Shown here piece after piece: positions 1,741-19,228 of a stretch of 24,385 nucleotides of DNA (position 1 is the first letter of the stretch; the number at the start of each line of letters is the position of its first letter). The position numbers and the translations under genes were made by a program. The notes beneath the pieces were generated by a model. The model made no database searches. It was given only the letters and a program-made list of their open reading frames with translations, and was not told where the DNA came from. The stretch is from a virus. Where the stretch lies: positions 1-24,385 of IMG/VR virus record IMGVR_UViG_3300017996_000017. The stretch is one strand, 5' to 3'.

Positions 1741-3411
1741 ATGGAAGATGTGATCGATGTCGCGCGGATCGAGGCAGACGACGAGTACCGTTTTGCGCTT
1801 CGCTACCGCATGATCACCGACCTCTTCTGGTTGACGAAATATGTGCTCGGCTACGACAAGGTGACGGAGCATGATCACCGCGTCGTGGCCGATCACTTCG
1901 TCAAAAAGGATCCCACGCGCTCGATCGACCATCAAGACACGCGGCGCCGGCGCATCCTGCTGCTGCCGCGAAAAACTTTCAAAACCACCTTCAACATCGC
2001 CGACTCTGTGCAGTGGATCCTCGGCTTTCCCGACGTGGCCATCATGGTGATGACGGCAAGCAACTCCGACGACTCCCCGCTGGCCGACGCTTTCGTGACC
2101 GAAGTCGCGGAGCACTTTGTCTGCATCGAGGGCCAGCCCAAAAAGCCGCTTCATCTATGTTTTCCCGAGCACGTCATCACGAAGCGGCCAAAGAACGGCG
2201 TATTTCACGATTTCATCTCGCCGGCGCGCACCAAGTACCGTCGCGATCCAACTGTGACAGGCGTCTCGATCGAGCAGAGCCTCTCGGGGTGGCACCCGGA
2301 CATCATCAAGAGCGAGGACGTGCAGGACAATCGCAACTCGCAGACCGCCTACGCTCTGAAAAAAGTTCGCACCAACTTTTACATCAACCTCAAAATGCTC
2401 GGCGAGACGGGATTCCTCGACATCACGGGCACGCGCTACGGGCCGATGGATCTCTACGGCGACCTCATGCAGAAGTCCGACGACAATACCATCGTGCTTT
2501 GGAAGCCGGCCTACATCCGGAAGCCACACGCGATGAAGGTCGACGACGACTTATTGACCGTCGACGATGTGATCATGCAATTCCCGCAGCAACTCTCCTG
2601 GCCATTTTTGAGAAGTGAGAAGATCCTCGACGAAAGCAGCTTCTGGACGCAATATATGAACGTCGCCGAGGGCAATTTCAAACCCACCTTCCCGATTGAC
2701 CGGCTCAACGCAGCCAAAGTGAAAGACGAACACTCGGAACACGAGGGCAAGGTTCACATCTGCTGGCGTTTCGAGTACGCGGAGTGTAAAAACTCAGCCG
2801 GCGCCGCCGGCATCGAGCACGAAGGGCGCATGACAATCGTCGACATCGCCCGCGGGATCTACACGCCCACCGCGCTCGCGACCAGATTCGTCGGCATGGC
2901 CAAGCGATGGAATTGCCACAGCGTCGAAGTCGAGGATACGCCTGGCGCCGAAAGCATGGTCACTCACATTCGCAACGAAGCGATCGAGCAGGACTGGCGG
3001 ATCCAGATCACCTGGAGCCCCTACCTGCAGGATGAGACAGCCAGGCAGTTGAAGATCAAAACGGCCGAGCCTCACCTTATGGCCGGCCGACTGCTTTTTG
3101 CCGACGGGATCAGCAATGTGCAGGAGGCGTTCCGGCAGCTCTATCACTTCGGCATGGTCGAGGAGAGCGAAGTCGCGAACGTAATCTCGCGCGTGGCTGG
3201 TAAACTGCCCGCGTCGATCGCGAGCGACGAGCTCGCGGATCTCGATGAGGAGCAGCTCACCAACTACATCGAGCGCGACGCCTACGATCGCGTGTACGGC
3301 CGCGGCCAGTATGCCGCGATCGAACCTGCGCCTGATTTTGAAATATATGATTTTGTACCGAACCGGGCACCCGCCGACCTGGACGACATCATGCCAGGCC
3401 TGTCCGGATAA
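1741..3411 (+). CDS. terL: Terminase large subunit
   Basis: 556 residues, the usual length for a phage packaging motor (ATPase plus nuclease). The N-terminal ATPase carries a deviant Walker A, PRKTFKTT (residues 76-83), preceded by a hydrophobic strand RILLL. It resembles the HFKST-type P-loops of many terminases in which the glycine before Lys is replaced by an aromatic residue. WHPDIIKSED (184-193) fits the Walker B region with the acidic pair E192/D193, followed by the Q/N-rich DVQDNRNSQ. The C-terminal RNase H-like nuclease is suggested by TIVDIARG (D368), SVEVEDTPG (E396/E398) and LLFADG (D454). It would dock on the portal, whose gene follows after one small gene. The ribosome-binding site is weak, so translation is probably coupled to the upstream gene. 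Confidence 0.9.
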   Translation: MEDVIDVARIEADDEYRFALRYRMITDLFWLTKYVLGYDKVTEHDHRVVADHFVKKDPTRSIDHQDTRRRRILLLPRKTFKTTFNIADSVQWILGFPDVAIMVMTASNSDDSPLADAFVTEVAEHFVCIEGQPKKPLHLCFPEHVITKRPKNGVFHDFISPARTKYRRDPTVTGVSIEQSLSGWHPDIIKSEDVQDNRNSQTAYALKKVRTNFYINLKMLGETGFLDITGTRYGPMDLYGDLMQKSDDNTIVLWKPAYIRKPHAMKVDDDLLTVDDVIMQFPQQLSWPFLRSEKILDESSFWTQYMNVAEGNFKPTFPIDRLNAAKVKDEHSEHEGKVHICWRFEYAECKNSAGAAGIEHEGRMTIVDIARGIYTPTALATRFVGMAKRWNCHSVEVEDTPGAESMVTHIRNEAIEQDWRIQITWSPYLQDETARQLKIKTAEPHLMAGRLLFADGISNVQEAFRQLYHFGMVEESEVANVISRVAGKLPASIASDELADLDEEQLTNYIERDAYDRVYGRGQYAAIEPAPDFEIYDFVPNRAPADLDDIMPGLSG

Positions 3412-3420
3412 AGGAGAAAG

Positions 3421-3612
3421 ATGCCAGCGCCGATCTTGAAATATTTCGCGTTTAACCACCTGCCGCAGAAGCTGCAGGAAGTCTCCGAACCGATTGCGCT
3501 GATCGCCCAGGCGATGGACACTTGCCTGCCCGACGGCGCTGAAAAATCCGCAGGTCTGCGGAAACTGCTCGAAGCAAAAGACTGCTTCGTGAGAGCGAGG
3601 CTCGACGCATGA
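3421..3612 (+). CDS. Acb2/Tad1 hairpin-domain family protein (predicted anti-CBASS cyclic-nucleotide sponge)
   Basis: 63 residues. The layout is that of the Acb2/Tad1 hairpin family: an N-terminal aromatic strand KYFAFNHLP (7-15), a first helix QKLQEVSEPIALIAQAMDT (16-34), a CLPDGAEKS turn (35-43), and a second helix GLRKLLEAKDCFVRARL (45-61). Family members such as Acb2 of phage PaMx33 and T4 Vs.4 form hexamers that sequester cyclic di- or trinucleotides and block CBASS effector activation. Many short phage proteins have the same HLP...LPDG.EK..ALRKLLEAKD..VRA signature, and not all have been tested. It has an excellent AAAGGAG site, starts 9 bases after terL, and its TGA overlaps the portal ATG (ATGA, 3609-3612), so it would be made late with the structural proteins. 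Assignment is by motif recall, not by search. Confidence 0.68.
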   Translation: MPAPILKYFAFNHLPQKLQEVSEPIALIAQAMDTCLPDGAEKSAGLRKLLEAKDCFVRARLDA

Positions 3613-5750
3613 CAGTACTCAAAGACGAAGTAGTTGGCAGCCAGCGCATCGAGAAAAACGATGTTGAAGTGGTGGGGCCGAAGCTCGATCCCAAATACAC
3701 CGACGACGGCGCCGTGCAGCTCACGATTCAAGACGCCAGGCGCGCGCAAACTTTCCTGGACCAGAAGCAGTGGAACCTCTACTGGCGCGAGAGCGATGTG
3801 CTCTACCAGGCACCGCGCACAAACTCGACCTTCGACGGCTCGACCGTGGCGCGCGCGAATATCTCGCGGTTCACCGTAGCCAAGCACGTCAACAGCCTGG
3901 TACCGGCGATGAAGTCGGGGATCTTCTACGAAATGCCGCCCTTCGTCATTCGTCCCAGGCCTGCGACCAGCCAGACGACCGCGCGCGCGAAAACCGCGCT
4001 CTATGGCGCACTCATGGACGATTGCGGATTCGAAAATCTGGCGGAGGACGCGCTCGAATCGATGACGTGCTTCGGCACTGTGATCGTCAAGCCTGGCTGG
4101 CGCCGGGACGTGAAGAAAAAGAAAATTCGCCGGCCGCGCGCCGCGCCGATCCGCAAGACGCTGCCCTTCGGCGGCGAACTTGTCGTGCACACCCGCGAGA
4201 GCGATGAGATCGTCAAAACCGACGCCGAGGTTGTCGAGGAGGGCATGACGTTCGAGCCCCGCGAGCTGGGGAGCGTGCTGATCGATCCGACCTGGAAGGG
4301 AAAGAACGAGCTGCACAAAACGGCGAAATATGTGATCTACGTCGACTACCCGACCTTCAAGGATCTCGACGGGCTGCGCGAACAGCAGGTCTTCGATGAA
4401 GATGGCAAACAGATCGGCGGCTTCGACATTCCGCCCGCAGAGGATCTGAAAGATTACTTTTTTTCACACGAGCAAAATGCGGCCACGCCGAGCCAGGTGC
4501 AGCAGAACCAGGGCGGCCAGAATTGGGCAATCCATCACGCACAGTCGCCAGACGAGCCTGCGAGCGACGATCCGCTCCTGCGCCCGATTCAGATGCTTGA
4601 GCGTTGGGATCCAACTTACGTTTACACCGTGCTACGGCCCGACGGCGGCGATCGCGGCGTCCTCATTCGCAAGGAAGAGCACGGGCTGCCCTTCATTCCC
4701 GCCTTCGCCGCAAACTTTTGGAACATTCCGAACGCCGGCTACGGCATCGGAGTCGGCCGCTTGGCCGGCAGCGATCAGCGCATCGAGAAGGGAATGGTCG
4801 ATGCCCTGCTCGACATGCTGAGCTACGCCGTGAACCAGACCTACGTGCGCGACCGCGGCGCCAACGTGCCAACACAACAGATCCGCATGCGTCTCGGCGG
4901 CATCGTCGACGTAGACACGAAGCCAGGGCAAAAGGTTTCAGACGTGTTCGGCATCATCGAGTCCCCGAAACCGCCGGCTGAGATCTTTCCGATCCTACAG
5001 AACGCGGCGCAGGACGCGGAGACGACGACGGGCGCAGATCAGGCCTTCAACCAGGGCAGCCTGCCCGGCAAGGGCAGCTCCGCGGCGCGCACCGCTACCG
5101 GCGCCGGCGGCATCATCGCCGCCAACGCGGCGAAGATCCAGGGGCCGGTCGGTCACTTCGTGCAGGGAGTACTGCTGCCATTCATCGAGCTCATGGATCA
5201 CTTCGTCAAGGACCGCATGAGCCCGAGCCGGATCCGCGAGACGCTGAGCAACGACCTGGCCACGGCGTTCGATCTCGACGCGCAGAACTTTTACGAGTCT
5301 GAGGATCGCTTCGAGTGCCTGGCTGGCGCGCACCTGGCTGCGAAAAAAGCCATGGCGCAGGCGTTGCCGCTCATGGTGCAGATCTTCGAGAATCAGCCGC
5401 TGATTCAGCAGCTCAACGCGCTCGGCTGGATGGTCGACGTGAAGCAGCTGCTCGAGATGTTCATGGAAGTGAGTGAATGGAAAAATGCTCGCGAGCTGAT
5501 TCGCCCCATGAACAAACAGGAGCAACAGAAGTACCAGCAAAACAATCCAGGCGTGCAGCGCGTGCAGGGACAGATCGCGGCGATCGGCGCGCGGCACCAG
5601 GCGAAGGCCGCGGAGATCGACCAGCAGAACGAAGCCGACCTGGCAAAGAGCCTGATCGGGAACGCCAGCGACGAGGCGGCGCTATTCGACGAGCGTCGCT
5701 GGGACCGCATGGCCGACAACCAAAGCGAATTCGCGCCACAAGGAGCGTAA
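3609..5750 (+). CDS. Portal protein (P22-like, podovirus type)
   Basis: 713 residues, close to the length of P22-type portals. The protein forms the dodecameric ring through which TerL pumps DNA and to which the tail attaches. The sequence shows the family layout: a charged N-terminal region, the segment AKHVNSLVPAMKSGIFYEMPPF (about 91-112), a wing region rich in charged residues (about 165-330), then LPFIPAFAANFWNIP (360-374), GYGIGVGRLAGSDQRIEKG (377-395), a long helix through 415, PGQKVSDVFGI (439-449), and ETTTGADQAFNQG...ARTATG (471-498), which matches the conserved TG(V/A)...RTA(T)G element of portals. The C-terminal 180 residues are helical and Gln/Ala-rich, as expected for the barrel. 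The 4-base overlap with the upstream gene suggests coupling. Confidence 0.88.
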   Translation: MTVLKDEVVGSQRIEKNDVEVVGPKLDPKYTDDGAVQLTIQDARRAQTFLDQKQWNLYWRESDVLYQAPRTNSTFDGSTVARANISRFTVAKHVNSLVPAMKSGIFYEMPPFVIRPRPATSQTTARAKTALYGALMDDCGFENLAEDALESMTCFGTVIVKPGWRRDVKKKKIRRPRAAPIRKTLPFGGELVVHTRESDEIVKTDAEVVEEGMTFEPRELGSVLIDPTWKGKNELHKTAKYVIYVDYPTFKDLDGLREQQVFDEDGKQIGGFDIPPAEDLKDYFFSHEQNAATPSQVQQNQGGQNWAIHHAQSPDEPASDDPLLRPIQMLERWDPTYVYTVLRPDGGDRGVLIRKEEHGLPFIPAFAANFWNIPNAGYGIGVGRLAGSDQRIEKGMVDALLDMLSYAVNQTYVRDRGANVPTQQIRMRLGGIVDVDTKPGQKVSDVFGIIESPKPPAEIFPILQNAAQDAETTTGADQAFNQGSLPGKGSSAARTATGAGGIIAANAAKIQGPVGHFVQGVLLPFIELMDHFVKDRMSPSRIRETLSNDLATAFDLDAQNFYESEDRFECLAGAHLAAKKAMAQALPLMVQIFENQPLIQQLNALGWMVDVKQLLEMFMEVSEWKNARELIRPMNKQEQQKYQQNNPGVQRVQGQIAAIGARHQAKAAEIDQQNEADLAKSLIGNASDEAALFDERRWDRMADNQSEFAPQGA

Positions 5751-6755: not shown

Positions 6756-7235
6756 ATGAATCACAGATACGGACTCGACAAAGATCGCCAGCGTGGGATC
6801 GAACTGCGCATCGCGAGCGGCCGCCTGGTTCCGACGCGAGAGATCGCGCTCGACCTGGTGCGCCGCTATCCTGGCATTAAAGGGATCTGCAGGATCTGCG
6901 GCTGCACAGAGTTCAACGCGTGCCATGAAGCCCAAGGTCGCTATGAATGTAAAACCTGCGGCTGGGCTGACCAGACGCAAACGCTCTGCAACGCGGCTAG
7001 CTGCATCGAAGCCGCGAAATCCACAACCAAAACCGGACAGCCGGAAGGCTACAATCCAACACCAGCAACCAAAGCGCCGCCGGCGCTCAACCTAAAAGAG
7101 GAGAAAAATCATGGAGCAAACCACACCGAGCGGCCTGGCAGCAGACGCGATCGGCGCAATCACAATGATCTCGAAGGCCGCAATCGAGGAAATCAGGGAG
7201 ATCTCTCAAGCGGCCGGGAACAGCAGCCCAGCTGA
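6756..7235 (+). CDS. Zinc-binding small phage protein with overlapping C-terminal tail
   Basis: 159 residues. The core is ICRICGCTEFNACHE (44-58) and YECKTCGW (64-70), with C45, C48, C50, C56, H57, C65, C68, C78 and C83. The CxxCGCTxxxAC opening is a frequent zinc motif of small phage and bacterial proteins of unknown function. AGCGGAGG precedes the ATG. The last 41 residues lie in the +1 relation to the next gene, whose strong ribosome-binding site and ATG are at 7111, giving an unusually long 125-base overlap. That tail is polar and Arg/Asn/Gly-rich, and may be a stop-codon-loss extension. Function is unknown; nucleic-acid binding is plausible. Confidence 0.6.
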   Translation: MNHRYGLDKDRQRGIELRIASGRLVPTREIALDLVRRYPGIKGICRICGCTEFNACHEAQGRYECKTCGWADQTQTLCNAASCIEAAKSTTKTGQPEGYNPTPATKAPPALNLKEEKNHGANHTERPGSRRDRRNHNDLEGRNRGNQGDLSSGREQQPS

Positions 7236-7605
7236 GAGCCCCTGGCCAGCTGCAAACGCGGCCATGGAGGCGATCCACGCCGGCAGGCAGCAGCTGGCAA
7301 CCGAAGAAGACGCCTCGGACCAGCCCGAAGTGATCGACCTCAAGCCGATGGAAGCAGCATTGGCGGCCGAGGCCGAAGCGGAAAGCGAAGAACTGGCAAC
7401 CGGAGCACCGCAGAAACTGAGCCCTAACGACCTGGTGCGCGCAGCGATGGGTGGGGCGCCGCCGGCAGCATCGGCCGGGACCGGCGTCAACGCGAAGCTC
7501 GCGGCCGCGGCAACCAGCGGCGGCACAGCGGAAAGCGAAGCAACCGCAACTGACCCGGCAGCGGGCGCAACGGGCGGCGATGACACCAGCACAGAGAGCG
7601 CCTAA
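7111..7605 (+). CDS. Ala-rich acidic low-complexity phage protein
   Basis: 164 residues, dominated by Ala, Glu, Ser, Gly and Thr. The start is well supported by AAGAGGAG upstream of the ATG. Residues about 8-35 (GLAADAIGAITMISKAAIEEIREISQAA) form an amphipathic helix; the rest is mostly disordered, with one ordered-looking element around LSPNDLVRAAMGG (107-119). I do not recognise a family. The position three genes before the capsid gene and the composition would suit an assembly chaperone or minor head component, but this is only inference. It overlaps the upstream gene by 125 bases and the downstream gene by 26. Confidence 0.6.
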   Translation: MEQTTPSGLAADAIGAITMISKAAIEEIREISQAAGNSSPAESPWPAANAAMEAIHAGRQQLATEEDASDQPEVIDLKPMEAALAAEAEAESEELATGAPQKLSPNDLVRAAMGGAPPAASAGTGVNAKLAAAATSGGTAESEATATDPAAGATGGDDTSTESA

Positions 7606-8005
7606 GCGAAAGCCGGCATCGCTGAAAGGAATCAGGACGACGCGAACCTTACGAGTAACTGAGGTTCGCGTCGACCCTGAGAGAGAACGCCTGCTGGCCG
7701 AACTCTACAAAACGAACTATTGGGAAGCGCTGCTCGACGAGATGGAGGCAAGCTGCATCCAGATCGAAACCTGTCTCATCGACGCCCCGATCGGCGACCC
7801 GGAAGAAATTCTCGGCGCTCACGCGGTGACCAAGGCGGCCTGGTTATTCTTTCAACATGTTCAGAAAAAAGTGTATAGTGCTTACCAGAAACATGCAGGG
7901 CAGGAAATCCCAGCTCCGAAACCGAGCCTCAACGATCTGATTCAGAGCATGGAAGGCGTACCGATCGAGCCAGGCGACAGCCAGGACGATCCAGGAGAGC
8001 GGTGA
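7580..8005 (+). CDS. Hypothetical helical phage protein
   Basis: 141 residues from ATG 7580, which overlaps the end of the upstream gene by 26 bases. The frame is open further upstream, but that extension is Arg/Gln-rich and looks like a shadow of the neighbouring Ala-rich gene. The N terminus is basic (PAQRAPKRKP), followed by a beta hairpin (RTLRVTEVRVDP), then helices (ERLLAELYKTNYWEALLDEM; AHAVTKAAWLFFQHVQKKVYSAYQKH). The last 30 residues are acidic and Pro-rich. No catalytic motif is visible. Next to the scaffold and capsid genes, it may be a head-assembly accessory protein. The ribosome-binding site is weak (GGGCGGCG), consistent with translational coupling. Confidence 0.6.
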   Translation: MTPAQRAPKRKPASLKGIRTTRTLRVTEVRVDPERERLLAELYKTNYWEALLDEMEASCIQIETCLIDAPIGDPEEILGAHAVTKAAWLFFQHVQKKVYSAYQKHAGQEIPAPKPSLNDLIQSMEGVPIEPGDSQDDPGER

Positions 8006-8817
8006 TGGCGCGAGAGTGGCAGGATCTAGGCGGCGCTCGGAAGAAACTCACGATCACCGACGACAAAGGCCGGGTACCCCCAGTCTACGTCTACGGCACC
8101 GAGCAGGAGATCCTCGACAAGCTCGCCGATTCGAAAATCAATGGCGACGTGGCCATTGCCGCCGCAAAGAACGCGGGGCCAGCACTGACCCCAGGCGACC
8201 GGATGCAGCTTGTCGCCGATCTGAGAGATCCAGCTAAGGTCGATACCGCGATCACAAAGGTTGTCGAAGCCGCCGTCGGGCCGCTCGAAGAGATCCGGCA
8301 GGACCGGAGAGAGGACCGCCAGGAACGCCAGATCCGGCTGGCCACGGAAGCAGCAACAGCTTTCGCCGACAGCACGCCCGACTGGTACAACAGCGAGCAC
8401 AACAAAAAGACGCTCGTCAACTACATGAGGCGCATGGGGCTCGACAGCACGAAGGTCGAATCCTATCGCAACGCCTTCGATGAACTGAACAACGCGAAGC
8501 TCCTGCAGGCCCGACCGGCCCAAGGTGACGGCGGCGAAGGTGAAACCGCAACGGAATCCCAGGCAACTCAGAACGAGCGCACTGCTCCCGCGCCCACAGC
8601 GCAGCCCCGGACTCCAACCAGGTACTCGACAGGCGTCCGCCCGAGCGATGTGAGCGGAACGCAGCCGAGGCCCACCAACCGGCTGAAGTACACACGGGAG
8701 CAGATTGATCGCATGAGCGCCGCCACGATGAAAAGTCTGATGAACGATCCGGACTTCATTAAGGCGTCGGAATTCTATGCCGCCGAGGATAGAAAGCTGC
8801 AGCGCCGCGCGAGCTGA
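8005..8817 (+). CDS. Scaffold-like head assembly protein
   Basis: 270 residues. Start choice: AGGAGAG (7993-7999) is 7 bases from ATG 8005 once AGGAG is aligned; an in-frame GTG at 8002 is possible but too close. The ATG overlaps the previous TGA (TGATG). The protein is highly charged, with a helical middle (PLEEIRQDRREDRQERQIRLATEAATAF, about 93-120), a short conserved-looking segment WYNSEHNKKTLVNYMRRMGL (127-146), a disordered Gln/Thr/Pro linker, and a C-terminal helix pair (YTREQIDRMSAATMKSLMNDPDFIKASEFYAAEDRKL). Such a charged, extended protein with a C-terminal interaction helix directly before the capsid gene is the typical setting of a phage scaffolding protein. No protease motif is seen. 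Confidence 0.68.
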   Translation: MAREWQDLGGARKKLTITDDKGRVPPVYVYGTEQEILDKLADSKINGDVAIAAAKNAGPALTPGDRMQLVADLRDPAKVDTAITKVVEAAVGPLEEIRQDRREDRQERQIRLATEAATAFADSTPDWYNSEHNKKTLVNYMRRMGLDSTKVESYRNAFDELNNAKLLQARPAQGDGGEGETATESQATQNERTAPAPTAQPRTPTRYSTGVRPSDVSGTQPRPTNRLKYTREQIDRMSAATMKSLMNDPDFIKASEFYAAEDRKLQRRAS

Positions 8818-8856
8818 AACTTCCGTTCCCTTCATGCCAGACAGGGAGCGAATACC

Positions 8857-10020
8857 ATGAACCAGTCCGACAAATTCCTTCGCCAACGCGCGTGGGTCGT
8901 CGAGAACGTCCTGCGCCCAATTCTCTATGTGCTGGCCCTGATGGGCTCGGCCCTGGCCTACGTGGTCACGAACGAAGCCCACGCCCTGGCCACGGTCGCG
9001 CGCCTCGGCACTGGCTACTCGCCGGCGTCGAACCTCACGTCGAATCTCACGCAGACCCAGGTGAACTACTACGACAAGAACTTCATCGACAACCTGAAAG
9101 CCGAGACGCCTCACTACCGATGCGTGGAGCGGCGCCCGCTGCCTGAGAATAGCGGCAACACGCTCAACCTGTTCGAGTACGTCCCGTTTGGTCCGGATCT
9201 CTCGCAGGCGCCGGAAGGCACGGTGATGGCGGGCGAAACCATCTCGATCCTCACCGACAAGATCGTGCTCGGCAACTATGCCGACTACCTCAACTATTCC
9301 AAGTTCTCGTTGCAGCTCGCCATCGATCCCGCGCTCGAAAACGGCGGCAAGGAGCTCGCTTACCAGTGCGCTCTGACCGTGGCCTACCTGATCAAGAACA
9401 CCACCGACACGTTGAACACGATCGATTCGAGCACCCTCGAACAGAACGCCTACAATGCGCCGTTCAACAAAAACAACATCACGACCGCGATCGCCAGCCT
9501 CCGCGGCCGCAATGTGAAGCCGTTCGAGCAGGGAAAATTCTGCGGCATCATCACCCCCTTCTGCTGGGGCGACGCCCTGAATGACAACTCAAACAACAGC
9601 TTCACCGATGTGCTGAAACGGTCGATCGAAGGCGTCGACATCCTGCGCGAACTGCCAGGCGGCGAAGGCGATATGGTCGAGTGCATGGAGTGGGCCGGCG
9701 CCCGCTTCTACGAGTCGACTGTCGTCACGCAGACGGCCAACTACCTTGGCCACGCCGGCGTGACCGCGTACCGCACCTACATCTACGGCAAGGACGGCAT
9801 CATCACGATCTCGATGGGTGCGAAGGAAAACACCAACATCGGCGATGGCGACTGGCGCAACCTCAAGGTCATCACCAAGCGTTACGACGACGCCAGCGTG
9901 AGCGATCCGGCCATGATGATCGGCGGCAGCGTGGCGTACAACTTCAATTTCGCGGTCGGCGTTGTACCGGATACCACGGGCCGCGTTCGCATGATCGACG
10001 CGCCGACGCTGATCTCCTAA
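8857..10020 (+). CDS. Major capsid protein, N4-gp56 family
   Basis: 387 residues. It matches the N4-gp56 capsid family pattern (HK97-like fold): YYDKNFIDNLKAETPHYRCVERRPLPENSGNTLNLFEYVPFGPD (about 71-114), TVMAGETISILTDKIVLGNYADYLNYSKFSLQLAIDPAL (about 122-160), a helix-rich middle, and a C-terminal YIYGKDGIITISMG...GDWRNLKVITKRYDDASVSDPAMMIGGSVAYNFNF. AGGGAG (8843-8848) is 8 bases before the ATG, so this start is well supported. Odd feature: residues about 18-46 (VLRPILYVLALMGSALAYVVTNEAHALA) are as hydrophobic as a signal anchor, preceded by a basic N terminus. The family core starts only near residue 70. The segment could be a cleaved N-terminal delta-like region, a scaffold-binding helix or a membrane anchor. 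Confidence 0.87.
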   Translation: MNQSDKFLRQRAWVVENVLRPILYVLALMGSALAYVVTNEAHALATVARLGTGYSPASNLTSNLTQTQVNYYDKNFIDNLKAETPHYRCVERRPLPENSGNTLNLFEYVPFGPDLSQAPEGTVMAGETISILTDKIVLGNYADYLNYSKFSLQLAIDPALENGGKELAYQCALTVAYLIKNTTDTLNTIDSSTLEQNAYNAPFNKNNITTAIASLRGRNVKPFEQGKFCGIITPFCWGDALNDNSNNSFTDVLKRSIEGVDILRELPGGEGDMVECMEWAGARFYESTVVTQTANYLGHAGVTAYRTYIYGKDGIITISMGAKENTNIGDGDWRNLKVITKRYDDASVSDPAMMIGGSVAYNFNFAVGVVPDTTGRVRMIDAPTLIS

Positions 10021-10548: not shown

Positions 10549-10553
10549 CCATC

Positions 10554-10592
10554 GAAAAGTATGCTTCCGCACCGCCGGGAAGCATACTTTTC
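10554..10592 (+). terminator. 15-bp perfect hairpin, likely intrinsic terminator
   Basis: Perfect 15-bp arms GAAAAGTATGCTTCC (10554-10568) and GGAAGCATACTTTTC (10578-10592) with a 9-base loop. Read as a terminator, the 10-bp core stem is preceded by an A-tract and followed by TTTTC. The A/T-rich ends make it potentially bidirectional. It sits 6 bases after a stop codon and 12 bases before the ribosome-binding site of the next gene. It is the strongest transcription-stop candidate in the window. Confidence 0.65.
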
Positions 10593-10614
10593 CATCCCAA
10601 ACCGGAGGATCCAC

Positions 10615-11331
10615 ATGAAACTGAGTTTCGCAGCCTTCGCCCTCGCCGCCGCAATCCTGGTACCGACCCCCGGCGTCGCGCAATTCGCCACGGTCGACAA
10701 TGGACCTTCGGCAACGAGTACCTGCCAATCAGCGCCGGCGCTCTACTACGACCAGCAAAACCAGCTTTTGCAAACCTGCGGCAGCAACCACACGCGTCAG
10801 TACGATGAGACAGCCCTCGGCGTGTTCAACGCGCAGACTGCGGTTACCAGCGTCACGACCGCGAAGACCATGGCCTCTCTGGCCTTGAACGCCAACGCGC
10901 AGAACTATCTCGGCCGCACTTTCAGGATCTGCGCCTCGGGAATCTACACGACGGCCGGCACAACAACTCCGACCTTGACCTTCTCAGTGATTGAAGGCGG
11001 CATTACGCCCTGGTCTGTTACCACGGGAGCGACCAGCGCAACGGCCTCGACGAGCCTGCAGTGGAGCTTCTGCACGAACATCACCACGGCGTCGATTTCG
11101 ACTTCGGCGAGTCCGTCGACGACAGGCACTCTCGAGGCGCATGGCAACCTGGCTGTGAACCTCAGCGCCAATTCGCCGGGCGCGGCTCTGACCGTCTACG
11201 GCGATCAAAACACGGCCGTATCGAGCGCCATCAATCTTTTCAGCGCAAACACTCTGGCCGTCCAAGTTGCGGCGAGCGGCACCGTAACCAGCGTGCAGCT
11301 TCGCCAGATGACGATCGAGCTGATCTCGTAG
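10615..11331 (+). CDS. Exported beta-rich virion-type protein (Sec signal peptide)
   Basis: 238 residues from ATG 10615, with GGAGG (10604-10608) 6 bases upstream. An in-frame ATG at 10561 lies inside the hairpin and is rejected. The N terminus is a Sec signal peptide: MK, hydrophobic LSFAAFALAAAILV, then PGVA|Q with cleavage after A22. The mature part is Thr/Ser/Ala/Gly-rich beta structure with four cysteines (C37, C55, C106, C153). GRTFRICASGIYTTAG (100-115), TPWSVTTGATSATA, SLQWSFC and the final VQVAASGTV...QMTIELIS repeat the order of elements in the cysteine-free protein at 744-1316. An exported copy with an even Cys count suggests folding in an oxidising compartment. It may be a surface-exposed or lysogenic-conversion protein, or a virion component; the role is unknown. 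Confidence 0.68.
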   Translation: MKLSFAAFALAAAILVPTPGVAQFATVDNGPSATSTCQSAPALYYDQQNQLLQTCGSNHTRQYDETALGVFNAQTAVTSVTTAKTMASLALNANAQNYLGRTFRICASGIYTTAGTTTPTLTFSVIEGGITPWSVTTGATSATASTSLQWSFCTNITTASISTSASPSTTGTLEAHGNLAVNLSANSPGAALTVYGDQNTAVSSAINLFSANTLAVQVAASGTVTSVQLRQMTIELIS

Positions 11332-11370: not shown

Positions 11371-12378
11371 ATGGGTTCGAGCACCACAACGCTGCAGAGT
11401 GTCGTCGACTATGTGACCTCGCTCGGCGAGATGAGCCCGGTGATTCCAGCCAGCGGCTACAGCGTCTCGACGGCTCTCACCATGGGAACCGACGTGATGC
11501 TCGAACTGATCTCCCAGCGGTTCAACTTCAAATTCAACCGCATGAAGATCCCGCCTTTTTACACCATCAGCTGGCAGCAGGATTACGCGCAGCTGACCTC
11601 ACTTTTGCCCGGCCCGATCGGATGGCTCGAACATGGCTATTGGGTCGACATCAACAACACAGCCCTCCCCAAACCATCGTTCCCCGTCGAAACCGTGCGC
11701 GACCTCGAATACACTTCGATCTCGGGCAACCCGCCCGGCCAGGTCGCGTGGCAGTACAACAACCAGCTCACGCAGGGCGCGTGGCCAGGTCCGAACACGC
11801 TTTACGTGAACCCGGTCGGCGTGCTCAACGTGACGCCCACCAATCCGCCGATCAACATCCTCGACGTGAACGGAAACATTCTGGTGCTCACCACATTCGG
11901 CACCACGGGAGCGGTGCCGCCCGCGGCGCCGGCAAATTCGGCCGAAGGCGTGACGGTGGACGACGGCAGCTGCGTCTGGACCGTGGCCGCGCCGCTCTCG
12001 CAGGGTTTCAGGATCCGGCCGCTGCCGCCGCAGCAAGGCGTGTGCTACCAGATCAACCTGATCGCGCAGCAGAAGGCGCCCCCGCCGTTCACCAACCTCA
12101 ACCAGTTCATCAATCCAATTCCGGACGATTACGCTCATTACTTCCGCGACGGGTTTCAGACCTACTGCTACAAGATGAGCCCGGATCCGGCCATCAGAAA
12201 AATGTTTCCCGTGATGAAGCAGAACTGGCTCGCGAGCATCACCGCGGCTTTGAAGCAGGGCGATCACGAGGCCGACAGCGCGGGGTTCATTCCCGATCGC
12301 ACCGTCGTCGCGCCGCAGGGCGGCATCGATATCGGCCCCGCAAATCCGTACCTTTACAACGTCTGGCCAGGGAGATAG
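11371..12378 (+). CDS. Neck/tail structural protein with inserted beta module
   Basis: 335 residues. The N-terminal third (TLQSVVDYVTSLGEMSPVIPASGYSVSTALTMGTDVMLELISQRFNFKFNRMKIPPFYTISWQQDYAQL) and the C-terminal third (YAHYFRDGFQTYCYKMSPDPAIRKMFPVMKQNWLASITAALKQGDHEAD) are helical and look like one domain. The middle carries INILDVNGNILVLTTFGTTGAV...GVTVDDGSCVWTVAAP (about 160-210), a beta module also present in the large protein at 13329-16193. The position after the capsid block fits a head-tail connector or tail accessory protein, comparable in place to P22 gp4-type proteins; no clear homology to those is visible. GAGAGG precedes the ATG. A 5-bp hairpin lies in the short leader. Confidence 0.62.
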   Translation: MGSSTTTLQSVVDYVTSLGEMSPVIPASGYSVSTALTMGTDVMLELISQRFNFKFNRMKIPPFYTISWQQDYAQLTSLLPGPIGWLEHGYWVDINNTALPKPSFPVETVRDLEYTSISGNPPGQVAWQYNNQLTQGAWPGPNTLYVNPVGVLNVTPTNPPINILDVNGNILVLTTFGTTGAVPPAAPANSAEGVTVDDGSCVWTVAAPLSQGFRIRPLPPQQGVCYQINLIAQQKAPPPFTNLNQFINPIPDDYAHYFRDGFQTYCYKMSPDPAIRKMFPVMKQNWLASITAALKQGDHEADSAGFIPDRTVVAPQGGIDIGPANPYLYNVWPGR

Positions 12379-12381
12379 GCG

Positions 12382-12552
12382 ATGCCGCTGCTCAAAGGTC
12401 GATCACTCAAGACGTTCAGGACCAACATCCGCGAGTTCCACACGGGCAAAACCTACGCGCGGACGAAAGCTAAGTTCGGCAAGCGAAAGGCCGACAAACA
12501 GGCTGTCGCAGCTGCCTACGCGCAAAAGCGACGGAGCACAAAATCACGGTGA
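12382..12552 (+). CDS. Small basic phage protein
   Basis: 56 residues, about one third Lys/Arg. Translation begins MPLLKGRSLKTFRTNIREFH and ends KQAVAAAYAQKRRSTKSR. The ending resembles the KQAVAIAYxxxR signature of very small phage proteins of the MPLxKSxSKKxxxxN type, here with a basic insertion (TGKTYARTKAKFGKRKAD). AGGGAG stands 8 bases before the ATG, and the gene starts 3 bases after the previous stop. Likely binds nucleic acid or is a minor virion or packaging factor; function unknown. A second Lys-rich small protein starting with LKGR is found at 22433. Confidence 0.6.
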   Translation: MPLLKGRSLKTFRTNIREFHTGKTYARTKAKFGKRKADKQAVAAAYAQKRRSTKSR

Positions 12553-12586
12553 AAGGAGGTCGCGGACAGTCGCCAGAGCATTGTGC

Positions 12587-12604
12587 GGAGGCCTTCGGGC
12601 CTCC
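12587..12604 (+). other. UUCG-tetraloop hairpin in intergenic leader
   Basis: A perfect 7-bp stem GGAGGCC/GGCCTCC closed by a TTCG tetraloop, an exceptionally stable RNA hairpin type. It sits in the 75-base gap before the gene at 12628. No T run follows (TCACGC), so termination is unlikely; transcript processing or stabilisation is more plausible. The gap also holds an AAAGGAGG at 12553-12559 with no ATG close behind it. Confidence 0.45.
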
Positions 12605-12627
12605 TCACGCTTGAGGATTGAGGAACC

Positions 12628-13329
12628 ATGGCAAACACGCTCACACTTCGGAACACCCTAAACTGGTGTGCAGCATTTCTTGAACAGCAGCCCGTGCTGA
12701 TCAATGGGATGGAACCTGCGCTGAGCTCGGCGAACCTCGTGCTGCAGACCACGCTCGGGCCGCCGTTTGCGTGGCCATTCAATCGCAGGGTGCTCAACTT
12801 CGTTTCGACGGGACAGGATTACGTCGCGGGCGGCTTGAATGATTTCGGGTTTCTCGAAGGCGGCAGCGTGGCGCCGCCGGCAGGAAATCCGTTCGAGGTT
12901 GCGGTGCGCGGGGTGCTGCAGCTCGAAGGCAACACGGCGCGGCCGAACTTCGTTTCAGAACTGACCGACGACGGCGCCGGCAACATCACGTTTCGCCTGA
13001 ATCCGACCCCGGCCGTCGAATCGAGCGTGACGCTGCTCTACCAGAAAAAAGCGCCCATCATGCAAAGCATGGCTTACACCTGGTTTCCTTTTCCCGACGA
13101 AAAGAACTATGTGCCGCAGTGGGGATTTCTCTCGCTCATGAGCCTGATCACGAACGACGCGCGCTTCAACGCTTATAACCAGAAGTTCATCACTTCGCTG
13201 CTCGCGCAACACGGAGGCCTGACTGCGCTTGAGCGCAACATCTTCCTCGCGAACTGGACAGCGGTGCTCAAAGAAGTGCAGAGCGCCCAGCTCGGAACAG
13301 CCGAACGCTTCAAGGCGAGGGAAGTGTAA
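12628..13329 (+). CDS. Neck/tail structural protein
   Basis: 233 residues. The N-terminal half is beta-rich (LTLRNTLNWCAAFLEQQPVLINGMEPALSSANLVLQTTLGPPFAWPFNRRVLNFVSTGQDYVAG). The C-terminal half contains VTLLYQKKAPIMQSMAYTWFPFPDEKNYVPQWGFLSLMSLI and ends in a helical stretch (GGLTALERNIFLANWTAVLKEVQSAQLGTAERFKARE). The WPFNRR and PxPDEYxxxxxxGxxxxL-like features are reminiscent of podoviral tail or stopper proteins, but I cannot give a precise homologue. GAGGA stands upstream of ATG. Its TAA overlaps the next ATG (TAATG), so it is made with the 954-residue protein, likely as part of the same tail substructure. Confidence 0.62.
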   Translation: MANTLTLRNTLNWCAAFLEQQPVLINGMEPALSSANLVLQTTLGPPFAWPFNRRVLNFVSTGQDYVAGGLNDFGFLEGGSVAPPAGNPFEVAVRGVLQLEGNTARPNFVSELTDDGAGNITFRLNPTPAVESSVTLLYQKKAPIMQSMAYTWFPFPDEKNYVPQWGFLSLMSLITNDARFNAYNQKFITSLLAQHGGLTALERNIFLANWTAVLKEVQSAQLGTAERFKAREV

Positions 13330-16193
13330 TGCCGGAAAGCCCTCTCCAAGCCGCAGGCGCACAGATTGACCCGTCGGCAGCGGCGCCGCTGCACACAAAC
13401 GAATGGTTCACGGGGATGCTCACGAACGGCAACCCGCTCGGGCCTGGCGCCGTTCCCTACCTCTACCAGAAGTTCTACTCAGCCAGCCGATATGATCGCC
13501 TGGTCGGCGGCGCGAATTCTGAAATCACCGCGCGCGCGACTCTCGGGCGCAGGCCTGGCAATACGGCCGTCAATGCCTCACCAGGATCTGCAGCGCAGAG
13601 GCTCTACTTATTTCCCGCGGTCAACACCAACGGCCAGAACAGCCGGCTGCTCGCCGATCTCGGGACGACGGTCGCCGACGTGACGGGAACCAGCACCGAC
13701 CCGCTGTTCACCAAATCCGGCGGCGCCGGCCGCGCCTGCTTTCAGGCCGTCGGCAACACATGCTACATAGGCGACGGCATCGATCTCAAAAAGTACATGC
13801 AGGCCGGCCAGGTGTGGCAGCCGAACACCGTCTATTCGCAGGGCGCGATCATCATCGACCCCAACGGCAATGTGCAGGTTGCCGAAACTTTCGCAACCCT
13901 CTCGATCACCGGCGTTCAGATCATCAAGTACGCCGGCAACTTCTATGCCATTGTGAGTTTCAGCAGCGAGGTGCTGTGGGGAGCAGGGCCGAATGTCACC
14001 TTTAGCGGGCTGCAGGCGTACCAGGGGCTCAACGGGGTGACGACCGCAGGGATCAACCCCGCAACGATCGGCTTCAACAACAACTCGAACCAGTGGGCAT
14101 TTGCTCTGCCCGGCGCCCAAGCCATCTATGGGCCGGCGCCAGACGTTGGGAGCGCGACGACCCAGCCGGCAGCGACGACAGGCCAGAGCGGAGGGTTCGC
14201 GCCGACCTGGTCGACAGTGCCTCCGAACTTCACGACGGACGGAAATATTTTTTGGCAGTGCTTCGGAGCGCCTGTATATCCATGGGCGCCGCCGGCCCCG
14301 ACGCAGCCGCCTACTTACTACCTCGGCAGCGGCAACGTGCTCAACTACTACCTGCGCTTTTGGGTTCCGAGCGCGCTCCTTTCAAACGGCGGCGGCACGC
14401 CTCTTTATCGCTCGATCATCGACGGAAACAATAATGTCGAACTGCTGATCATCCCAGCGGCGACGACTCTGTTTAGCGGCGCGATCGTACCAGCCTGGTC
14501 GCAGGTAACGCCGAGCGCCACATCGGCCGGCGGCGTCACGGTGGACGGAACGGCAAGCTGGCAAAACTGCGGGCCCGCGGGAAGCTGGGTGACGGCCTTC
14601 ACCTTCTACGCCAACCAGTGCATCCGGGACACGAACGGAAATCTGCAGGTGGTCACAGCGGGAGGAGGCGGCGCGAGCGGAGGAGCAGCGCCCGCGTGGG
14701 CAACGGCCGTGGGAGCAACCACAAACGACGGCGCGCTTACCTGGACCAACGTCGGCGCCGGCTACGTGTTTCTTACCGCGGCGCGCCAGTATTTTTATGC
14801 CTACCACACGATCAGCGGCCAGGTCACCACGCTTTCGCCGGCGAACGTTCTCAATCCGAATGGCAGCGCGATCGGAACCTACGGCGGCCTGATTGCACAG
14901 ATCGGCGCGCCAAAGCCTGCAGCGCCGGACATCGACGAAGTTTGGTTCTTCGCAACCGCGCAGGGCGGATCCGTGCCACTTCTGCTGGGCAGAGTTTCGG
15001 TCAACAATCTCTCAGCTTTCACCATCGGGTTCGTTGACAACTTTCCCGACAGTTTTCTCAACGCTGAGATCGTTGGCCCGCAGAATCATTTGAACGATCC
15101 GCCGCCCATGTACTTCGTGCCGGCCGCTTACCATCTCGGCCTGGTGTGCGGCTTCGTTGGCAATGTGCTTTTTTATTCCAATGGCATCGCGCCCGTCGGC
15201 AATCCAAACGAGAGCTTTCCGCCGAGCAACTTTTTTCAGCTTCCGTCGACGCCGATCGCGGCCTGGTCTACATCGCTCGGCCTGATCATCATGCGCATCG
15301 ACGGGATCTCTGTGATGCTGGGATCGAACACCGCCTCAAACCCGCTCTATGTCGTGAACATTTTCGACAGCGTGGGCCTGGCAGCGCGCGACGCTTTCGC
15401 GACGCGCGGTAACTCGCTTTTCATGATGACGACGACGGGCAAGGTGATGCGCTTCACCACGTCGCAGTTCATCGCGGCCATCCAGGGCGAGGAGGGCATC
15501 AGCCAGGCGCTGCCCGACGATGAGATCGGATTCCCGATCGGAGATCTGCTGGCCGAGTTTACGCCGGCGAATTGCTATCTCGCCTGGTACGAGGGGCCCA
15601 GCAACGACTCGGGCCTGTTTGTGTGCGACGGCGCGGGCAGCTGGTACATGATGCGCGTGATGAAACTGCCCGACCAGGCCACGCCATGGAGTCCGAAGGC
15701 GACGATCGCGACCGGGATCTCCTCGATCTATTCAGCTGAGACATCGCCGGGCACGACGAGCCTTCTGATCGGCACGCCGGCGGGCCCGATCTGGAAGCGC
15801 GACACGTCAACCAACGTCGACGCCGGCATGAGCTACGCCGCTTCGGCCATCGTCTCGCCGATCGTGCTTTCGGAACCCGGCAACACCGTCGCGCTGCAGT
15901 TCATCACCACCGAAGAAGTTAAAATTTCGGGCGCGACGCCGCTCACGGTCGGAGTGCTGTTCGACGAGATCAGCGGCACGTTCAACAGCCTGGTCCACGT
16001 CACGAACGATCCGCCGAACCTGCCCCCGAGCAAGACCATCGCGGTGCAGCGCTTCAGGGCGCAGCAGAGCGCCGGCGTGATTCCGGTCTGCCGCTACGTG
16101 CTCGAGCAGATTTCCTGGCCGGCGCAGAATTTTCCGAACGAGCTGTTGACAAACACCCTTTACGGGAGGCTGCCGGCGCGCACGCACCGGTAA
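13329..16193 (+). CDS. Large beta-rich tail / DNA-stabilisation-type protein
   Basis: 954 residues, almost entirely beta-rich. After an N-terminal region (WFTGMLTNGNPL...YSASRYDRLVGGANSEITARATLGRRPG) there are three copies of a module ending in P-x-W...T-x-DG...W: FAPTWSTVPPNFTTDGNIFW (near 14200), VPAWSQV...VTVDGTASW (near 14490) and APAWATAVGATTNDGALTW (near 14690). They are partly preceded by Y-x-x-G...D-x-NGN-x-Q elements. The C-terminal 450 residues (DIDEVWFFAT..., LVCGFVGNVLFYSNGIAP, IIMRIDGISVMLGS, ...NSLFMMTTTGKVMRF) have repeated four-strand units typical of a beta-propeller, as in P22 gp10-type packaged-DNA stabilisers. That comparison rests on fold impression. Start overlaps the previous stop; GAGGGAAG is the ribosome-binding site. 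Confidence 0.65.
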   Translation: MPESPLQAAGAQIDPSAAAPLHTNEWFTGMLTNGNPLGPGAVPYLYQKFYSASRYDRLVGGANSEITARATLGRRPGNTAVNASPGSAAQRLYLFPAVNTNGQNSRLLADLGTTVADVTGTSTDPLFTKSGGAGRACFQAVGNTCYIGDGIDLKKYMQAGQVWQPNTVYSQGAIIIDPNGNVQVAETFATLSITGVQIIKYAGNFYAIVSFSSEVLWGAGPNVTFSGLQAYQGLNGVTTAGINPATIGFNNNSNQWAFALPGAQAIYGPAPDVGSATTQPAATTGQSGGFAPTWSTVPPNFTTDGNIFWQCFGAPVYPWAPPAPTQPPTYYLGSGNVLNYYLRFWVPSALLSNGGGTPLYRSIIDGNNNVELLIIPAATTLFSGAIVPAWSQVTPSATSAGGVTVDGTASWQNCGPAGSWVTAFTFYANQCIRDTNGNLQVVTAGGGGASGGAAPAWATAVGATTNDGALTWTNVGAGYVFLTAARQYFYAYHTISGQVTTLSPANVLNPNGSAIGTYGGLIAQIGAPKPAAPDIDEVWFFATAQGGSVPLLLGRVSVNNLSAFTIGFVDNFPDSFLNAEIVGPQNHLNDPPPMYFVPAAYHLGLVCGFVGNVLFYSNGIAPVGNPNESFPPSNFFQLPSTPIAAWSTSLGLIIMRIDGISVMLGSNTASNPLYVVNIFDSVGLAARDAFATRGNSLFMMTTTGKVMRFTTSQFIAAIQGEEGISQALPDDEIGFPIGDLLAEFTPANCYLAWYEGPSNDSGLFVCDGAGSWYMMRVMKLPDQATPWSPKATIATGISSIYSAETSPGTTSLLIGTPAGPIWKRDTSTNVDAGMSYAASAIVSPIVLSEPGNTVALQFITTEEVKISGATPLTVGVLFDEISGTFNSLVHVTNDPPNLPPSKTIAVQRFRAQQSAGVIPVCRYVLEQISWPAQNFPNELLTNTLYGRLPARTHR

Positions 16194-16729: not shown

Positions 16730-17365
16730 ATGTGCGGTGGAGCGAGCAACACGCAAAACGAGCTGCAGGATGAGCAGGCGCCGTTCTATGCCACGCAGAT
16801 TCAGGCATATAACAACGCATACGCCAATTACACCCAGCTGCAGAACACCCTGACCCAGCAATTTGCCCCCGTATTGGCGGCCGGGCCAGGCCAGGCAGGC
16901 TACACCGCGCCCGAGCTGACTGCGCTGCAAACCGAGGCCAAGCAGGGAACGGCGACAAATTTCAATCAGGCCGAGCAGGCGGCCAACGCTGCCATCAATG
17001 CGCGCGGCGGCGGCAACGACACAACCAACATCACGAGCGGATCCGCGCAGGAGCTCGAAGGCTCGATCGCGTCGACGGCCGCGGCGACAGAAAGCGCCGA
17101 GGAGCTCGGCATCACGCAAAGCGACTACGTTCTCGGCAATCAGAACTACGAGAACGCGGTCGCCGGCACGGAAGAGGTCGCGAGCGGATGGAATCCGAAT
17201 AGCTTTGCCGGCTCGACGGTGAGCGCGGGAAATTCTGCAGATGCAGAAGCCAACGCGGTCGCCGAAGAAAACAACAGCGTGTGGAGCAACGTGCTCGGCG
17301 CGCTGGGCGGCGTGGCAGGAGCAGCGGTCGGGAACGGCGGCGCATTGACGAAGTTGATCCCGTAA
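16730..17365 (+). CDS. Putative ejection / internal virion protein, small
   Basis: 211 residues beginning MCGGASNTQNELQDEQ. The composition is Ala/Gln/Asn/Gly-rich with long amphipathic helical stretches (FYATQIQAYNNAYANYTQLQNTLTQQFAPVL; FNQAEQAANAAINARG; AQELEGSIASTAAATESAEELG) and a glycine-rich hydrophobic C terminus (WSNVLGALGGVAGAAVGNGGALTKLIP, about 185-211) that could insert into membrane. This is the typical appearance of internal virion proteins expelled with phage DNA, and many such genes start with an MCxG sequence. GGGAGC precedes the ATG by about 11 bases. It leads a set of three such genes. Confidence 0.6.
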   Translation: MCGGASNTQNELQDEQAPFYATQIQAYNNAYANYTQLQNTLTQQFAPVLAAGPGQAGYTAPELTALQTEAKQGTATNFNQAEQAANAAINARGGGNDTTNITSGSAQELEGSIASTAAATESAEELGITQSDYVLGNQNYENAVAGTEEVASGWNPNSFAGSTVSAGNSADAEANAVAEENNSVWSNVLGALGGVAGAAVGNGGALTKLIP

Positions 17366-17377
17366 GGAGCAGTCGCG

Positions 17378-19228
17378 ATGGAACTAGGTTTTAACAGCAG
17401 CAGTCCGGATCAGTCGCAGGGCTCATCGCCTTCGCCCTTGCCGAGCGCGGCGAACGAAGCGAACACGGCTTCGATGCCGGCGCCTGCGATCGCGACAGAG
17501 CCCACGCAGAACGACACAAATCTGCCGGCAGAGAAACCCACATGGGGCGATCGCGTTTATCACGGCATCCTCAACGCGCTCGGCGGCTCCGACCAGGTGG
17601 CTCTGCAGCGGGATCCGCAAACCGGAAAAATGGTCGCGACGCAAGTCAAGAGCGGGCCTGGCCAGCAGTGGAAGCAAATTATTTCCGGCGCGCTGTCTGG
17701 TTACTCCGCCGGCGCGGGAATCCGCGGACCGGGCGCAGGCGCCGCAAAATTCGGCGCCGGCTTTAACGCAACAAAGGGCGAAGCGCAGCAGCGGCAGCAG
17801 CAGGCGCGCCAGCAGGCGAACGAAGATTTCGATATGCAGTTGAAGGCCGCGACGAGCAACGCGCAGAATGCACTGCTCACGCATCAGATTACGAAATCGA
17901 CCTTCGAGCTAGGCCGCGAGCAGGTGCAGGCATCGGCAGAGGACTCCAACCGTGAAAACACTTTCGCAGATCTGATTTCGCAAGGCGGCGCAGGTTCGCA
18001 GGATCTCGGCGTGTTTCCCGACTTTGATTCCGTCGTGAAAGCCTTCAAGGCAAATCCCGACCTGCACGATCACCAGGCCGGCGGCCGCATCGTGGCGATT
18101 CCGCACGTCAACGGCGATGGCAAAGTCGACGGCGTGCACGCCGCGCTTGTCTCGCCGGACTGGCTGAATTCGAAGATCAACCAGGATCTTCCGATCACCG
18201 AGCGCACCTACCAAAACGGCAAACTCGAAGAGAGCACCTACACGATTCCCGCCGGGACTCTGACCGGCGATCAATATTCGAAACTGGTGATGAGCCAAAG
18301 CGCCGACGCGCTCAAAGCCTACACAGACGCCGCAACGCAATCGCGGGAAGCTAACCGCGCGATGCACGAGAACAGAGCCAGCGACGCGACGGCCGCGCAC
18401 GAAAACGCGGAGACGGCCATGCTGAACGGCGCAAATCCCGGCGGCGGACCTACGCCTGCAGGCGGCGGCGCCCCCACCGTTGTCGACATGATCGGCACGG
18501 GCCAGATGCCGGTCGGCCGCATGGCCTACTTGCTCAGCCGCAATCCAGGCCTCGCCAACGCCGTCGCGCAGAAGTACCCCGCTTTCGACGGATCGAAGAT
18601 CGACGCCTACACGGCGGCCTACAAGGACTTCACTTCCGGAGACGTGTCGAAAAAATTAAATTCGGGCGCAACCGCCCTGCAACACCTCCAGGAGCTTTTG
18701 AAGTTAAACACCGTGGAAAGCCACATTCCCGGCACGGGCGATTACAACGCTTACATGAACAAGGCGGACACCGTGAGCTCGGAGCTCGCGCAGTTTTATG
18801 GAACCGACACCATTCCGGGGATCGCAAGCATCAAGAAAACGCTCGTGGCAACGCTGCCCTATATGCGCAAACGCGGTATCCAGACGCAGGCGCAGTCCAT
18901 GGCGGATAAGTTCGGCAACTACGTGCAGCAATGGAACAATGCGGCACCGAGCGCCACCTATCAGGCGCGCATGCCGGGGATCTCCGACAACGCGATCGAA
19001 GCACTCAAGTCGCTCGATCCGGACTACGACAAGAGCAGCGTGGCGCAACTGGAAGGCCTGCGCGCAAGGATGAGCCCGGCCATCCAGGGCGCGCGGCAAC
19101 CGGCGCCGACGCAGTTGCCGCCGCAGGCGGTCTCGCAGCTCAAAGAGGGAGTGAATACGACTTTCGCAAACGGACAGGTGTGGACGTTGAAGAACGGCCA
19201 GCCAGCACAGGTGAACAATGGCCAGTAA
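17378..19228 (+). CDS. Putative ejection / internal virion protein, medium
   Basis: 616 residues. The first 50 are Ser/Pro/Ala-rich and disordered. Then comes a short ordered domain, WGDRVYHGILNALGGSDQVALQRDPQTGKMVATQVKSGPGQQWKQIISGALSGYSAGAGIRGPGAGAAKFGAGF (about 56-129), Gly-rich and weakly hydrophobic. A Gln-rich coiled segment follows (GEAQQRQQQARQQANEDFDMQLKAATSNAQN, about 134-164). The centre contains VDMIGTGQMPVGRMAYLLSRNPGLANAVAQKYPAFD (about 367-402), and helices continue to residue 570. No enzymatic motif is visible. AAGGAG stands before ATG. Size and place match the P22 gp16/gp20 or T7 gp15-type ejection proteins; the assignment is by position and composition. Confidence 0.58.
   Translation: MELGFNSSSPDQSQGSSPSPLPSAANEANTASMPAPAIATEPTQNDTNLPAEKPTWGDRVYHGILNALGGSDQVALQRDPQTGKMVATQVKSGPGQQWKQIISGALSGYSAGAGIRGPGAGAAKFGAGFNATKGEAQQRQQQARQQANEDFDMQLKAATSNAQNALLTHQITKSTFELGREQVQASAEDSNRENTFADLISQGGAGSQDLGVFPDFDSVVKAFKANPDLHDHQAGGRIVAIPHVNGDGKVDGVHAALVSPDWLNSKINQDLPITERTYQNGKLEESTYTIPAGTLTGDQYSKLVMSQSADALKAYTDAATQSREANRAMHENRASDATAAHENAETAMLNGANPGGGPTPAGGGAPTVVDMIGTGQMPVGRMAYLLSRNPGLANAVAQKYPAFDGSKIDAYTAAYKDFTSGDVSKKLNSGATALQHLQELLKLNTVESHIPGTGDYNAYMNKADTVSSELAQFYGTDTIPGIASIKKTLVATLPYMRKRGIQTQAQSMADKFGNYVQQWNNAAPSATYQARMPGISDNAIEALKSLDPDYDKSSVAQLEGLRARMSPAIQGARQPAPTQLPPQAVSQLKEGVNTTFANGQVWTLKNGQPAQVNNGQ

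Follow-up and report, generated by a model that had tools for sequence, protein, structure and literature searches.

An accessory jelly-roll protein and the tail spikes of SU10-type phages carry predicted export signals

Introduction

Tailed phages are taken to build their whole virion in the reducing cytoplasm. The tailspikes of phage P22 attach late to heads in vitro, and we know of no tailed phage in which an exported spike reaches particles assembled in the cytoplasm. Many superinfection-exclusion proteins, not all of them, are anchored in the membrane or as lipoproteins. Jelly rolls of the TNF-like kind are common in phage fibres. In the open-access literature, a scope that makes this weak evidence, we found no report of signal peptides on the spikes or fibres of tailed phages. 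Exported bacterial proteins have been described as characteristically preferring even numbers of cysteines (PMC7678975 and references there).

Here we analyze a stretch of 24,385 bases, referred to as the window, from a virus record in an uncultured-virus collection. A first-pass annotation had singled out the gene at 10615–11331, whose product we call P0002, as an exported relative of a cytosolic protein, P0001, and had proposed that P0001 was duplicated and its copy retargeted to the envelope, possibly for superinfection exclusion or surface display. Comparison with related phages suggests another reading, in which P0002 could be an exported virion appendage and the tail spikes would take the same route.

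Results

From its genes, the window appears to be the late region of a short-tailed phage of the SU10 type (Table 1), and we regard this phage as a soil-type, SU10-like one. The portal matches Pfam family PF23899 with an E of 1.7e-10, above the gathering score, and the adaptor gave a weak SU10-type match, below cut-off, in a profile search. Profile searches for a host or prophage found no relative of the capsid protein in 84,980 species genomes and, with the P0002 family, no host or prophage among genome contigs.

In the major head protein, the N-terminus is extended by a conserved stretch of about 45–50 residues with a hydrophobic segment, for example ILRPVLYVLAMWGSAIAFLIQEQGNALA before GYSPASN. 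The extension is also found in L001, L002, L005, L006, L008, L009, L013–L015 and L038–L052; in L019/L053, L020/L057, L021/L056 and L023/L054 it is absent, and the protein starts with MAGYSPASN or similar. The segment looks like a membrane anchor or a propeptide, which is odd on the capsid protein of a tailed phage.

Table 1. Features of the window; some genes are assigned by weak profile matches or by their order
Feature	Position	Strand	Remarks
Window	24,385 bases		Virus record from an uncultured-virus collection
P0001, predicted cytosolic TNF/C1q-like jelly-roll protein	744–1316	+	Group core gene; probable remote homolog of P0002
Terminase	1741–3411		
Portal	3609–5750		Pfam SU10_portal match above cut-off
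Major head protein	8857–10020		
Inverted repeat before P0002, 18 nt	10551–10595		A- and T-tract flanks
Shine-Dalgarno of P0002	10604–10609	+	GGAGGA; from sequence
Predicted Sec signal peptide of P0002, residues 1–22	10615–10680	+	Cleavage before Q23-F24
N-terminal module of mature P0002, residues 23–65	10681–10809	+	Contains Cys38 and Cys55
Predicted TNF/C1q-like jelly-roll domain of P0002, residues 66–238	10810–11328	+	AlphaFold2 model, alignment
Adaptor-like genes	11371–13329		
Large tail gene	13329–16193		
Core-like genes	16730–21539		
Cell-wall-hydrolase-like gene	22627–23040		
217-residue gene	23047–23700	+	Precedes the exported spike gene in all relatives read
Start of tail fibre/spike gene	23703–24385	+	Runs off the window; signal MKLWSRIFYFALTLAAPAIA before QQ, then fibre-type repeats

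P0002 is a 238-residue protein whose reading frame, with an ATG at 10615, coincides with the one proposed earlier. An upstream in-frame start at 10561 was dropped as a candidate; it lies inside a hairpin and is unconserved. The 18-nt inverted repeat upstream, possibly a terminator or a 5' UTR element, was not found at that place in four relatives, and a promoter and terminator scan called neither near P0002. The N-terminus of P0002, MKLSFAAFALAAAILVPTPGVA followed by QF, has an n-region, an h-region and a −3/−1 type site, with a predicted cut before QF at residue 23. Judged by rules and by eye, the exported homologs likewise have the n-region, the h-region and the small residues at −3 and −1 of a Sec/SPI signal. 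In the AlphaFold2 model the signal residues form a low-confidence segment that is not part of the fold. Cysteines are present at residues 38, 55, 106 and 153, the last two within the jelly-roll domain. The Sec signal and four cysteines of the first-pass annotation are confirmed, as is its observation that P0001, a protein of 190 residues, has neither. No lipobox or second hydrophobic segment, as expected for a lipoprotein or membrane anchor, was found in P0002.

Protein families were assembled from related virus contigs, giving 18 members for P0001 and 8 for P0002. In the alignment, exported P0002 homologs retain a signal while its sequence diverges. The mature parts of the five complete exported homologs contain 4, 2, 4, 6 and 4 cysteines; Cys106 and Cys153 are invariant, and the Cys38/Cys55 pair is jointly absent in L001. 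The cysteines of P0001 homologs number 0–2 and are scattered in position. The only signal-less P0002 homolog found, in L009, begins with an ATG, preceded by a good Shine-Dalgarno of its own, exactly at the cleavage site (M-SAPFAKM compared with VAQFATV). Both invariant cysteines are replaced in this protein (RIIEIS and LNFWF), and it retains the gene position and fold of P0002. Loss of the signal together with the disulfide cysteines is expected if the signal leads to an oxidising compartment. Export of P0002 is well supported by these sequence features.

The hydrophobic N-termini might instead be anchors that are retained and plug the protein into the tail or head. Attachment through the N-terminus is frequent among virion proteins, and a hydrophobic N-terminal segment also occurs in this group's capsid protein. 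However, the cleavage-site pattern lies before a Q and is directly followed by a conserved mature motif, the L009 protein starts exactly at the site, and the proteins are enriched in cysteines, present in even numbers. We consider retained anchors very unlikely.

Export signals are not confined to P0002. The tail-spike gene encodes a Sec signal in all 13 distinct phages read, including the window (23703 onward). In the 12 other phages, a signal-bearing spike or fibre of 0.75–1.3 thousand residues is encoded directly after the homolog of the 217-residue gene. Most of the mature spikes open with a motif of the type Q..NP.T.I.WP..C, and several match pectate-lyase-like, laminin-G-like or tail-fibre profiles. 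One simple rule assigns a signal to 11 of 13 spikes and 3 of 4 P0002 genes (14/17), compared with 19 of 282 other ORFs (Fisher p=1e-12), among them four capsid proteins of relatives and one of the window. An independent scan of all viral contigs with a DNA pattern for the mature spike motif gave 12 stretches, and all those retaining upstream sequence have a signal; one match, in L070, belongs to a phage with a different type of terminase and portal. A sequence search of solved structures with one spike returned nothing.

In other virion genes the median cysteine content is 0.43%; in the spikes it is 2.0%, with a range of 1.5–2.9% (Mann-Whitney p=1.8e-7). Even cysteine numbers, typical of disulfides, were counted in all five exported homologs of P0002 and in 15 of the 16 spikes whose mature part is complete; over both sets (20 of 21 proteins) a coin-toss model gives about 1e-5, a figure that treats related sequences as independent. 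From these sequence features, the tail spike itself is probably exported, and we find the group-wide signal on spikes more surprising than the delivery route of P0002. Signals on both kinds of protein suggest that the host-binding parts of these phages may mature outside the cytoplasm.

Could the spikes and P0002 be free secreted enzymes or lectins that loosen slime or decoy receptors, with other proteins binding receptors on the virion? Signals, cysteines and pectate-lyase-like or laminin-G-like domains are also typical of secreted enzymes, and neighbouring genes encode further exported proteins. Against this, the exported spike is the only spike-like candidate in near-full-length relatives, its gene sits where a receptor-binding gene is expected, and one spike has tail-fibre profile matches. 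Free secretion seems to us improbable.

Two further features of signal-bearing genes were observed. In L060 (827–3217) and L062 (2670–5006), the N-terminal module of the mature spike is repeated several times, each copy resembling INPxTQITWPxxCN...YxxxxNxCxD with two cysteines. In other phages, L077 (3107–6528) and L012 (4898–14682) contain runs of adjacent genes for signal-peptide proteins, of which, by eye, some are fibre-like, one FN3-like and one SGNH-hydrolase-like.

The first-pass annotation had related P0001 to P0002 through a shared order of sequence elements, with the caveat that this could be convergent beta-composition. At the sequence level the likeness is weak: pairwise BLASTP finds nothing, identity is 15.8% over 171 columns, and hmmsearch of P0002 with the P0001 profile gives no significant match (E 6.3). 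Profile-profile comparison of small alignments gave P=0.13, with the proposed motif (GKRFMVRAEGNLYTAGNYT in one protein, GRTFRICASGIYTTAGTTT in the other) as the best segment. With the 18- and 8-member alignments, hhalign gives a score of 26.3 (P=0.004, probability 8%). This score was not reached in any of 400 permutations, 200 of columns (maximum 25.7) and 200 of blocks of ten columns (maximum 24.7), and the reversed profile scores 11.7.

AlphaFold2 models of both proteins (pLDDT 89 for P0001 and 80 for P0002, the latter from a shallow alignment of only 8 sequences) are all-beta with collinear strands. In VIA-align, the N-terminal TNF-like lectin domain of BC2L-C (2wq4) matches P0001 with Z 8.7 and P0002 with Z 9.1, the latter over 121 residues; the C-domain of chlamydial Pgp3 (4jdo) gives 8.8 and 9.0. 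These Z values come from predicted models, and a Z near 8 can reflect a common arrangement. IBDV VP2 and a cyanophage A4 tail chain are in the match lists of both proteins, and the BFVD matches, A0A6J5L0H5 among them, include depolymerases and fibres. Foldseek also returned PDB entries outside lectin and TNF-type folds (fructofuranosidases and others), which we disregarded for their poor TM scores. Both proteins are thus predicted to be TNF/C1q-like jelly rolls over the whole domain, the same fold class. The permutation results, the collinear strands and the shared best TNF-like matches indicate that the resemblance exceeds shared beta composition; P0001 and P0002 are probably homologs, though distant ones.

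A shared fold alone does not imply duplication, since jelly rolls of this kind are so widespread in phage fibres. The nearest outside relative of P0002 is the C-terminal domain (residues 564–769) of a 770-residue exported fibre-like protein of another phage, L012, at 31% identity and a profile E of 2e-70. P0001 is present as a single copy in 18 of 18 SU10-type records and P0002 in 6 of 18; three long records (43.3, 42.7 and 34.1 kb) are without P0002. P0001 is a core gene and P0002 an accessory one, and absence from most relatives indicates that P0002 is not needed for assembly. For a duplication of P0001 within the lineage speak the common fold, the weak profile similarity and the adjacent arrangement of the two homologs in L006. 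However, P0002 resembles the L012 fibre domain far more than it does P0001 (16%), and relatives that have diverged from each other carry both families. There are simpler accounts than duplication with retargeting, whose probability appears slight; what stands of the earlier interpretation is the fold class, a homology that is weak but above chance, and the export signal with its paired cysteines, while direct duplication lacks support.

Searches of Pfam and PHROGs assigned neither protein to a family, and member-by-member PHROG scans gave only weak matches. In 50,697 phage records, tblastn with P0002, P0001, the L009 and L012 relatives and one spike as queries found no match. Further scans that started from the homologs in L009 and L006 returned nothing beyond these proteins.

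Several other genes were noted at related positions. L006 has three consecutive beta-rich genes upstream of the terminase (7013–9094): a P0001 homolog, a third protein (7810–8364) and a signal-bearing P0002 homolog, an arrangement that is split in the window. Genes with an Ig/BIG2-like region by eye occur in L015 (12084–12677), L005 (13020–13589) and L031 (11295–11936). They may encode head fibres or decoration proteins, and those of L015 and L005 occupy the post-capsid slot held by P0002 in the window. A small gene of L005 (4041–4328), between the P0001 homolog and the terminase region, has a Tat-like N-terminus (MVTRRGFFGMLAGALA).

The envelope role proposed earlier would make P0002 an exported, moron-like surface protein that serves superinfection exclusion, at the level of adsorption or entry, or lectin display and never enters the virion. 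Its patchy presence as an accessory gene, its export signal and disulfides, and its lectin-like fold would all suit such a protein. Against it stand the missing lipobox or membrane anchor, the export of the same phages' spikes, the same domain at the end of a fibre-like protein, and a promoter scan in which P0002 had no promoter-like site of its own. Furthermore, the L009 homolog keeps its gene position and fold without a signal, which argues that P0002 function is independent of an envelope location. A purely envelope-based role is unlikely in our view, and superinfection exclusion is less likely than a virion appendage. It could still be a role or side effect, because the envelope would hold phage receptor-binding proteins before lysis.

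Discussion

We propose, with about even confidence, that P0002 serves as an accessory appendage: stabilised by disulfides, it would fold in the periplasm alongside the spikes and join virions at lysis. P0002 would then be a phage TNF-like appendage domain of a known kind with an unusual delivery route. A location in the virion is suggested by its position among head and tail genes and by its fibre-type fold; for P0001, gene position likewise points to a virion protein. The broader proposal, that short-tailed soil phages route spikes and TNF-like appendages through Sec, form their disulfides in the periplasm and add them only at lysis, we hold to be a balanced possibility. The sequences support the signal, the disulfide-type cysteines, the fold class and, in every relative read, a similar signal on the spike.

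In the proposed pathway, Sec would export the P0002 precursor, and a cut before QF would release the mature protein. In the periplasm this would adopt the TNF-like jelly-roll fold, probably trimerise, and be locked by a Cys106–Cys153 disulfide, usually with Cys38–Cys55 as a second. It may serve as an accessory mini-fibre, a fibre tip or a receptor-binding tip, presumably recognising a receptor or glycan. P0002 would be one of a set of exported proteins, among them the tail spike, that stay outside the cytoplasm until lysis breaches the envelope and lets them bind particles that are complete in all other respects. We infer the oxidation and trimerisation in the periplasm, the attachment to virions and the timing at lysis; late attachment is feasible, since P22 tailspikes bind heads late in vitro.

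If this is correct, these phages make part of the virion in a second compartment and add it late, a split-compartment assembly. The cysteine-rich spikes would be explained, and assembly would be tied to Sec, Dsb and the timing of lysis. Before lysis, receptor-binding proteins of the phage would already be present in the envelope of the infected cell, and this could affect superinfection. For annotation, phage genes with a signal peptide do not necessarily act in the envelope.

SU10-like short-tailed phages (genus Kuravirus; PMC9509320) have in common with the window the portal, with its above-cut-off Pfam match; they differ in that P0001 and P0002 are unmatched in PHROGs or the phage records searched, and that the spikes of the window's group bear signal peptides. 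Phage-encoded envelope proteins with signals, of which Lom (PMC12309495) is one, and superinfection-exclusion proteins share with P0002 a signal peptide and a late-gene neighbourhood. In contrast to Lom, a beta-barrel outer-membrane protein, P0002 is predicted to be a soluble jelly roll without an anchor. The fold of the P0001 and P0002 models is common to 2wq4, 4jdo and the cyanophage A4 tail chain 9k09, the first two being the best structural matches (Z about 9 over 115–121 residues, rmsd 2.5–3.0). None of the three has meaningful sequence identity to P0001 or P0002, and P0002 has three additions: the signal peptide, a cysteine-containing N-terminal module and a disulfide predicted inside the sandwich. 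The P22 tailspike, which has no signal peptide and folds in the cytoplasm, can bind finished heads late and spontaneously; binding of this kind would allow an exported spike to be added after lysis.
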